50,261 bases of DNA from Deltaproteobacteria bacterium (GTDB taxonomy: Bacteria; Desulfobacterota; Dissulfuribacteria; Dissulfuribacterales; QOAL01): assembly GCA_024275145.1 (NCBI GenBank), contig JAJRZR010000070.1, positions 1 to 50,261 on the forward strand, in the 5' to 3' direction. Made by a program: the position numbers and the translations under genes. Below are positions 1-10,819 of this stretch, one piece after another; the first letter of the stretch is position 1; each line of letters starts with the position of its first letter. The notes under the pieces were generated by a model. The model ran no database searches. It was not told where the DNA came from and saw only the letters and a program-made list of their open reading frames with translations.

Positions 1-507
1 ACTGCCCGCAGACTGTTGGACCACGCAAGGGGTAAAATCATGATAAGGATGTCCGGGGTTCTTACCAGGCTGAATCCTGATGAAGGCCCTGCCTACAAGG
101 ACTTCTGGAGACAAATGGGGGCCGATGCCTGGGTGTATACATGCCACGGCCGTGGCGGGAACCTGGATGCCCCAAGCATCTATCAACCAGGAGAAACCGG
201 GCTAAAGGCAGGTGGATGCGGACTCATCAGGTTTCATGGCTTCATATCATGGGAAGGGGAGATGCTGGCATGTTGCAATGACCTCACGGGCGCTACCAGT
301 ATTGGTAATATCAATATCTGCGATCTGAAACATATGGCCATAAAGAGGGAAGCCATCATAAAAAAAACCCTTCCCTTTGAGCTGTGCCGCTGGTGTGACG
401 AACCGCTCAGGAATGTAAAAATCCCTGCGTATCTGCCAAAACGTGGTAAAAAGGGCCTGTGGAAATCTTTAAAGTCCATCAACCAAAACGGGAAAAAATC
501 GGATTGA
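1..507 (+). CDS. Radical SAM/SPASM-domain protein, C-terminal part
   Basis: The frame is open from base 1, so the true start lies outside the window; the TTG at 16 is not a believable start. What remains looks like a SPASM-type auxiliary iron-sulfur domain: GGCG near residue 72, a short beta segment ending in LACCND, then a GN(I) turn and CRWCDEP near residue 133. Such domains follow a radical SAM barrel and bind an extra 4Fe-4S cluster in enzymes that modify peptides or small molecules. The substrate cannot be told without the N-terminal half. The gene ends 29 bases before an EamA transporter on the same strand. The domain call rests on Cys spacing and is fairly sure; the function is open. 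Confidence 0.7.
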   Translation, partial: TARRLLDHARGKIMIRMSGVLTRLNPDEGPAYKDFWRQMGADAWVYTCHGRGGNLDAPSIYQPGETGLKAGGCGLIRFHGFISWEGEMLACCNDLTGATSIGNINICDLKHMAIKREAIIKKTLPFELCRWCDEPLRNVKIPAYLPKRGKKGLWKSLKSINQNGKKSD

Positions 508-536
508 AAAAATCTTAGAGAGGGACCCTTCCATCC

Positions 537-971
537 ATGCCCACGTGGCTTCTTTATTCCATACTGGCACTGATTATCTACGGTTTCTGGGGATTTTTCC
601 CAAAGCTTGCAGTCAACTACATCCGTCCCATGAGCGCCCTGATATATGAAGTCAGCGGTGCACTCGTTGTCGGTATCTGTTGCCTGCTTTTCGTAGATTT
701 CAGGCCTGATTTCAACCCGAGGGGGGTATTGTTCGCCGTACTTACCGGCATCTGTGGGATGCTGGGAACCCTTTTCTTCTTTGCCGCTGCCAGCAAGGGG
801 AAGATCTCGGTGGTGGTGAGCCTTACGGCCTTGTATCCGCTTATCACCATATTTCTGGCCGCTGTTTTCCTGAAGGAATCCCTTAGCGTAAAACAGATTA
901 TAGGCATGGTGTTCGCGCTCGTTGCCATATATCTATTGTCATCTGGCCAAAACAGCCCTTATGGAAATTAA
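537..971 (+). CDS. EamA-family half-size membrane transporter
   Basis: This 144-residue protein is almost entirely hydrophobic and has about five membrane segments: residues 4-25, 33-54, 64-84, 92-112 and 118-137. Motifs are typical of one EamA (DMT superfamily) repeat, including ALYPLIT before the fourth helix and FLKESLS just after it. Full-length EamA carriers have two such repeats. Single-repeat members are known and are thought to act as dimers, as in the SMR family. Substrate unknown; export of a small metabolite is the usual guess. It follows the radical SAM gene by 29 bases and may share its transcript. A terminator-like hairpin lies about 145 bases downstream. Confidence 0.8.
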   Translation: MPTWLLYSILALIIYGFWGFFPKLAVNYIRPMSALIYEVSGALVVGICCLLFVDFRPDFNPRGVLFAVLTGICGMLGTLFFFAAASKGKISVVVSLTALYPLITIFLAAVFLKESLSVKQIIGMVFALVAIYLLSSGQNSPYGN

Positions 972-8648: not shown

Positions 8649-9146
8649 ATGAGCAGTGTCAAACAGATCGAATTGGATCTACCTTGCGGGCTATTTTATG
8701 ACATATCGAACCTGATCCTGGACCTGAACGGAACGCTTACTGTAGATGGGCAGCTTGTAGAGGGGGTTGTGCCCAGGCTGAAGGAACTTTCCAAATTGCT
8801 CAATGTGTATGTCCTGACCGCCGATACCCATCAGACCCTGGATGGTCTCACAAACGAACTCAGGGATGACTGCGGCGTCAACATACACTGCCTGGAATCG
8901 GGCAGGGGGGACCTACAGAAGCTGGCATTCCTTGAAAAATTGGGCAGGGAACAAACAGTGGCCATCGGTAACGGCTGTAATGATGCCCTTATGCTTAAAG
9001 AGGCCGCCATCGGGATATGCGTAATCGGCAAAGAGGGGGCATCCATAGACGCATTGACCTCAAGCAGGATAGTATTCCTGGATATTCGTGACGCGCTTGA
9101 TATCTTTCTCAAACGTAACCGGCTCATAGCCACGCTCAGAAAATAA
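8649..9146 (+). CDS. HAD-superfamily protein of the soluble P-type-ATPase type
   Basis: A 165-residue HAD fold. Motif I is LILDLNGTLTVDG, with Asp25 as the nucleophile; the second acidic position of typical phosphatases (DxD) is Asn27, as in the soluble P-type-ATPase-like group. Motif II is the TAD near residue 58, and motifs III/IV appear as AIGNGCNDALML. No membrane part, so it is not an ion pump. Loss of the second Asp makes fast phosphatase turnover doubtful, so it may be slow, or may bind or transfer phosphate. It ends seven bases before the selD ATG, so the two are very likely translated together; whether they share a function is unknown. Confidence 0.82.
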   Translation: MSSVKQIELDLPCGLFYDISNLILDLNGTLTVDGQLVEGVVPRLKELSKLLNVYVLTADTHQTLDGLTNELRDDCGVNIHCLESGRGDLQKLAFLEKLGREQTVAIGNGCNDALMLKEAAIGICVIGKEGASIDALTSSRIVFLDIRDALDIFLKRNRLIATLRK

Positions 9147-9153
9147 GGATCCA

Positions 9154-10206
9154 ATGACCACCGCATCCAAAGGAGCCAAATTGACCGAAAGGGTCAAGGC
9201 CTCCGGTTGAGCATCCAAAATAGGTCCGGGTGACCTGCAGAAGATACTTGAGAGTCTGCCTTTATCCAACGATCCACGTCTGCTCATTGGCATAGAATCT
9301 GCTTCCGATGCCGGGATATTCAAGCTTTCGGAGGACATAGCGCTGGTTCAATCCCTGGATTTTTTCACACCAATCGTAAACGATCCTTATGAATTTGGAC
9401 AGATTGCAGCGGCAAACTCCATGAGCGATATCTATGCCATGGGTGGGCACCCTGTAACTGCACTGAACATCGTCTGTTTTCCGGTGAAGGAACTCCCCCG
9501 TGAGATGCTTGCCAATATACTCAGGGGAGGAATCGACAAGGTACACGAGGCCGGCGCTGTGCTCGTCGGTGGACACAGTGTGGATGACCCAGAGCCCAAA
9601 TTTGGCCTGGCCGTAACAGGGATTGTTGACCCTTCCAACTTCGTTACAAATGCAGGCGCGCGACCTGGCGACAGACTAATCCTGACAAAGCCCATAGGTA
9701 CTGGCATCCTGTCTACCGCCCATAAGGCCGGGCTTCTTCCTGAAGAGACGCTTCAAAAAATGATAAAGGTGATGAAGGCCTTGAACAGGGCTGCGAGCGA
9801 GGCAATGATGGAGGTGGGTGTTCATGCCGCAACCGACATAACCGGATTCGGACTTATTGGGCATGGCCTCGAAATGGCCGAAGCCAGCCAGTGCAAGATG
9901 GTCATAGAGGCCGGAAAGATCGTCGTATTGGACGAGGCGATCAAGTTCTTGGGTCAAGGCCTGATCCCTGAAGGTGATTATGCCATCAAACGCTTCTGTT
10001 CCAGGCAAATCGTTATCCACGAGGGGATCGACCGGGACAGGCTGGAAATCCTCTTCGATGCCCAGACGTCAGGCGGCCTGCTCATAGCGGTGCCGGAAGA
10101 AAAGGCCGATCTCCTCTTTACCAGGCTCCTGGAAAAGGGCCTGGTAGAAATAGGCCTAGTAGGCCACATGGAAGAAGGCCACCCATCGGTTGAAATCATT
10201 CCCTGA
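9154..10206 (+). CDS. selD: Selenide, water dikinase SelD, itself a selenoprotein (UGA = Sec19)
   Basis: SelD makes selenophosphate from selenide and ATP, the selenium donor for selenocysteine and selenouridine synthesis. The gene reads from ATG 9154 (AAGGA at 9145-9149) through an in-frame TGA at 9208-9210 to TGA at 10204-10206, giving 350 residues, the normal family length. The TGA lies in the context SG-U-ASKIGPGDL, where the family has its catalytic Cys (or Sec), and the partner Lys follows three residues later (Lys22, as Cys17/Lys20 in E. coli). Downstream are conserved SMSDIYAMGG, GGHSVDDPEPKFGL and TDITGFGLIGH segments. Gene callers will start it at the internal ATG 9421 and lose the active site. 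It follows a HAD gene by seven bases. Decoding needs SelA, SelB and SelC from elsewhere. Confidence 0.95.
9208..9240 (+). promoter_or_regulatory. Sec UGA and bacterial SECIS-like hairpin in selD
   Basis: After the TGA at 9208-9210 the message can fold AGGTC (9222-9226) with GACCT (9232-9236) around the loop CGGGT. The stem starts 11 bases after the TGA and can be lengthened by a T-G pair. Bacterial SECIS elements are short hairpins at about this distance, with G and T in the apical loop, and are bound by SelB. Fit is by eye, not by a folding program. Confidence 0.65.
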
Positions 10207-10216
10207 CAAACGAGGC

Positions 10217-10735
10217 CTAGTGTGCCTTTTCAGCCACAAGCCGCCTGATTATGGGCTCAATCTCCGCTTCGGTTATCATGCCGGTATAACTCTTTACTAT
10301 CTTGTGATCCCTGTTCAGCAAGAAGGTGGCAGGCAATGCATAGATGTTGCCGTAATCCCTAAGCACCTTTTGTGTAGCAAGAAGTACCGGGTAGTTGATC
10401 TTCAGGGCCTGTATAAAATAGGGTAGCACCTTGCGAGGATTCTGGTCTACTGAAATGCCTATGATTGCAAAGCCGTCTCTGCCATAGCGGCTGGCAAGCC
10501 TTACAAAGTCAGGTATCTCCATACGACACGGGGGACAGTAAGTGGCAAAGAAATTGATCAGGACCACCTTGCCCCTGAAATCAGCAAGACTTATACGGTC
10601 CCCGTTTAGATTCAATAATGTAAAATCAGGGGCGCGGGATGAATCCGCCTTGCTCTGACAGGCAGAAAACAGGAAGATGGAAAGTAATACCAGAACGATC
10701 CCGACAAGTGGTTTCCTGAGTATTTTGACAGCCAT
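10217..10735 (-). CDS. TlpA/ResA-like thioredoxin-fold lipoprotein
   Basis: Start taken at 10735 (MAVKILRK), which puts a lipoprotein signal right at the N-terminus: hydrophobic 10-24 and the lipobox LFSAC with Cys26. The mature part is an AhpC-TSA/TlpA thioredoxin domain with APDFTLLNLNG, the active-site CPPC (Cys67, Cys70) and a cis-Pro in YALPATF. Such proteins work outside the inner membrane, reducing or oxidising disulfides, often for cytochrome c maturation, and need an electron donor such as CcdA/DsbD. None of those genes is nearby. It lies just downstream of a creatininase-family gene on the same strand, and faces selD, with only ten bases between the two stops. Confidence 0.88.
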   Translation of the reverse strand: MAVKILRKPLVGIVLVLLSIFLFSACQSKADSSRAPDFTLLNLNGDRISLADFRGKVVLINFFATYCPPCRMEIPDFVRLASRYGRDGFAIIGISVDQNPRKVLPYFIQALKINYPVLLATQKVLRDYGNIYALPATFLLNRDHKIVKSYTGMITEAEIEPIIRRLVAEKAH

Positions 10736-10819
10736 ATTCAAAAATCCCTTTTTACAGCCCGCAAAAGGCTTCCTCTGCAGGGTATGCGCCCCGAAGCAGC
10801 CCGGAGTAATACCCATGAT

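Follow-up and report, generated by a model that had tools for sequence, protein, structure and literature searches.

The gene at positions 9154 to 10206 of the window, by which we mean the whole 50,261-nucleotide stretch that was analyzed, almost certainly encodes a Sec-containing selenophosphate synthetase (SelD), in which the UGA codon at 9208 to 9210 is predicted to be read as Sec by means of a hairpin at 9221 to 9237. The following features carry this reading:

9154 to 10206, plus strand: selD, selenide water dikinase, predicted Sec at residue 19; 350 amino acids, own stop codon TGA at 10204 to 10206 (TIGR00476, PDB relatives, 13-sequence alignment)
9208 to 9210, plus strand: UGA predicted to encode Sec at residue 19, the catalytic Sec/Cys site (codons of relatives, alignment to 3u0o)
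9217 to 9219, plus strand: codon of the invariant Lys22, three residues past Sec (alignment A2)
9221 to 9237, plus strand: putative bacterial SECIS hairpin, stem 9221-9226/9232-9237, loop CGGGU at 9227-9231 (fold, conservation of pairing)

Translation from ATG 9154 through the TGA at 9208 to 9210 gave a protein of 350 residues with U19 and K22. In a profile search, this read-through protein matched the SelD model TIGR00476 with 385 bits (cut-off, 125) across model positions 1 to 310 of 311. The solved SelD structures (PDB 2yye/2zod and 3u0o) aligned over nearly their full length; the alignments to 2yye and 3u0o extend to either side of the TGA and match U19 and K22 to the catalytic Sec/Cys and Lys residues, and Lys22 was invariant across the 13 sequences of alignment A2. 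Entry 3u0o is presumably E. coli SelD, which would place U19 opposite Cys17 of that enzyme. The mechanistic roles of the Sec/Cys residue and the Lys are well established for the SelD family, and U19 and K22 conform to the family pattern of a catalytic Sec or Cys with Lys three positions further on. The initial annotation had called this gene a 350-residue SelD starting at ATG 9154, with the TGA at the catalytic Cys position and the Lys three residues on; the reading frame, the near-complete coverage of the family model, and the alignment across the TGA bear out each of these points.

Under the standard code, the sole listed open reading frame in this region runs from ATG 9421 to 10206 (261 amino acids), ATG 9421 being the earliest in-frame start 3' of the TGA. 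As had been anticipated, gene callers would pick this start and cut off 89 residues, the catalytic Sec and Lys among them. That same open reading frame is what would favor taking the UGA as a true stop, leaving either a pseudogene or a 261-residue protein from ATG 9421. We consider this extremely improbable: both catalytic residues, Sec and Lys, are encoded upstream of 9421, the genome carries no other strong SelD although SelA and SelB are present, and the frame, the UGA, and its flanking residues are conserved over 51 genomes. The downstream terminator behaves differently. At the place equivalent to 10204 to 10206, TGA, TAA, and TAG alternate among relatives, so the TGA there is a true stop.

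Conservation of the in-frame TGA was observed in two sets of relatives. Exactly one TGA interrupts the SelD frame in 51 of 60 related genomes (the present genome counted), the remaining 9 being without a strong SelD, and the context A-S/A-G-U-A-S/A-K surrounds it at all 30 loci that were read. The second set comprised 80 named relatives of the GTDB collection, among them Desulfobacterota-type MAGs, Bacillota, and Chloroflexota. Here the aligned codon was TGA in 63, a Cys codon (TGC/TGT) in 17, and any other codon in none; in one of these relatives (L140) the automatic reading was shifted and the codon was assigned by hand. SelD identity was 47 to 57% to these named relatives and up to 91% to a same-genus genome. 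The UGA thus lies where homologs hold Sec or Cys, and every relative checked has either TGA or a Cys codon; a relative with a stop there and neither Sec nor Cys, which would have spoken against the initial annotation, was absent from this set. Copy number varies in a few genomes: G021 has two SelD copies (C4:99182-100177 and C10:60403-61425 in its own assembly), one stop-free and one with a TGA, and G052 and G055 have two TGA-containing copies each. A sequencing error converting TGC to TGA would require a single base change in a draft assembly of 120 contigs, but the identical TGA and the conserved hairpin recur in dozens of independently assembled genomes. Such an error is already refuted by this conservation, and we regard it as the most improbable of the explanations weighed here.

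Immediately 3' of the UGA, the fold places AGGTC (9222 to 9226) opposite GACCT (9232 to 9236) around the loop CGGGT (9227 to 9231), beginning exactly 11 bases after the TGA, and a U-G pair between 9221 and 9237 lengthens the stem to 6 bp. Folding thus reproduced the geometry and the GT-containing loop described in the initial annotation, with an energy that is unremarkable on its own (z about -0.8 to +0.6); a comparable hairpin was found at 7.3% of random window positions. Pairing is nevertheless maintained in evolution. Among 28 distinct relatives, pairing held in 87.5% of cells, versus 27 to 48% when the partner strand was slid. The hairpin was kept over 30 relatives with compensatory changes: a UA pair of the stem is exchanged for CG at an Asp-to-Gly change in the protein, and a GC pair for AU at a Gly-to-Ser change, a covariation that rests on a small basis of 3 cells in 2 pairs. 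Stem pairs 16-28, 17-27, and 19-25 are broken in two relatives (L048 and L050). A scan of the window against Rfam at the gathering threshold gave no matches. Because it is conserved with compensatory changes, and not because of its energy, this stem-loop, situated just 3' of the UGA and with an early G in a small loop, is very likely the SECIS element of selD.

The genome (2.65 Mb in 120 contigs; a draft listed as 100% complete) also encodes the machinery that such decoding would require. Profile searches detected one SelA (contig C39, 603 bits) and a single SelB match above the cut-off (contig C9, 352 bits), and a tRNA-Sec with anticodon TCA (UCA) is located on contig C111 (73 bits), so that SelA, SelB, and tRNA-Sec(UCA) occur together in one genome. 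A full Sec-decoding pathway and further selenoproteins had both been predicted from the selD sequence, and the search for selA, selB, and selC substantiated the former. For the latter, at least one more selenoprotein was found: an FdhA-type (formate-dehydrogenase-type) molybdoprotein on contig C81 (positions 7 to 822, minus strand; L060), with a TGA at its catalytic position (NCARV-U-HAPSVSGL). Within the window itself, a read-through Pfam scan of ten other TGA-interrupted open reading frames returned no matches and hence no second selenoprotein.

The genome additionally carries a tRNA-Sec-like tRNA with Cys identity and anticodon GCA (C4:1797-1884, minus strand; locus L052/L063), which follows a Cys-type formate dehydrogenase gene (catalytic codon TGC) at a distance of about 9 nt. 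This tRNA fits the selC* class of tRNA-Cys (review, PMC7609411). In four relatives (G001, G022, G023, and G024), a second SelB (selB*) lies beside the selC*-type tRNA; the present genome has one SelB only and no selB* partner for this tRNA, and because of this single SelB, selB* appears to have been lost. Could such a tRNA deliver Cys, not Sec, at the selD UGA? Some tRNAs of this kind in Desulfobacterales do have an opal anticodon (PMC7609411), and Cys homologs of SelD exist among the relatives. The tRNA on C4, however, has an anticodon that reads UGC/UGU, the second SelB that accompanies its counterparts is missing here, and a normal tRNA-Sec(UCA) is present with SelA and SelB. On the strength of its GCA anticodon we rejected the selC*-type tRNA as the decoder of this UGA, and Cys decoding is thus a very remote prospect.

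Reading of the UGA as Sec suggests the following course of events, in which we infer Sec insertion, SelB binding, and catalysis from the sequence features described above. A ribosome translating the selD mRNA would reach the UGA at 9208 to 9210, where SelB, holding both Sec-tRNA-Sec and the hairpin at 9221 to 9237, would bring about insertion of Sec rather than termination. Sec19, together with Lys22, would then take part in the synthesis of selenophosphate from selenide and ATP. SelA would in turn use selenophosphate in making Sec-tRNA-Sec, and SelD would therefore supply the residue for its own synthesis.

Two further features lie directly upstream of the selD start:

9145 to 9153, plus strand: weak ribosome binding site AAGGA with a 4-nt spacer before ATG 9154 (sequence)
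8649 to 9146, plus strand: HAD-superfamily gene, soluble P-type-ATPase-like, with a DLNGTLT motif (Pfam PF00702)

The ribosome binding site of ATG 9154, initially described as good, is present as AAGGA (9145 to 9149), but only 4 nt separate it from the ATG, it shares bases with the stop codon of the preceding gene, and the same-genus genome G001 has AATGA in its place. An alternative form of the Sec-containing SelD would start at TTG 9181, making Sec residue 10. AAAGGAG lies five bases upstream of this TTG and is a better Shine-Dalgarno match than the AAGGA before ATG 9154, and protein homology begins nearby. Relatives, however, carry an ATG 16 to 17 codons ahead of the TGA, and some of them, such as L027 and L031, lack any start codon where the TTG stands here. 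The TTG start is thus improbable, and the comparison supports ATG 9154 as the preferred start of selD.

The HAD gene ends 7 nt before selD, and the two genes are probably cotranscribed; translational coupling between them is also plausible. Its product has the P-type-ATPase-like motifs DLNGT and GNGxND. In 25 of 60 relatives the HAD gene is next to selD (in one of the 25, G015, across a contig break), mostly on its upstream side but on its downstream side in G043; among the named relatives, L105 has it upstream of selD and L156 downstream. It is nonadjacent to selD in 18 relatives and occurs without a strong SelD in four, and for this reason a strict functional link was rejected and the association is suggestive at most. 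We consider it unlikely that the HAD protein is a functional partner of SelD in selenium handling. On the other side, a gene for a TlpA/ResA-like thioredoxin-fold protein with a CPPC motif (10217 to 10816, minus strand) is convergent with selD, an order kept in many relatives.

Sec-containing SelD proteins have been described in many bacteria, with Deltaproteobacteria prominent among them (PMC1794560), and in one survey 19% of prokaryotic SelD genes had Sec, always at the identical position (PMC4561486). The present protein resembles the Sec-containing SelD proteins of Deltaproteobacteria and Firmicutes (PMC1794560, PMC4561486) in family, in Sec position, in its UGA and downstream hairpin, and in the accompanying SelA, SelB, and tRNA-Sec. 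We see no essential difference from them, the neighboring HAD gene being a local feature of gene order. E. coli SelD, in contrast, has Cys17 instead of Sec and is diverged in sequence. Since Sec-containing SelD is already well described (PMC1794560, PMC4561486), selD here is an ordinary selenoprotein gene in an arrangement long known in many bacteria. The chief value of the finding lies in annotation, as automatic calling omits the first 89 residues of the protein with its catalytic Sec and Lys. These results indicate decoding of UGA as Sec in this organism, and other TGA-interrupted genes in its genome, such as that for the formate dehydrogenase on C81, should therefore be read as selenoproteins.
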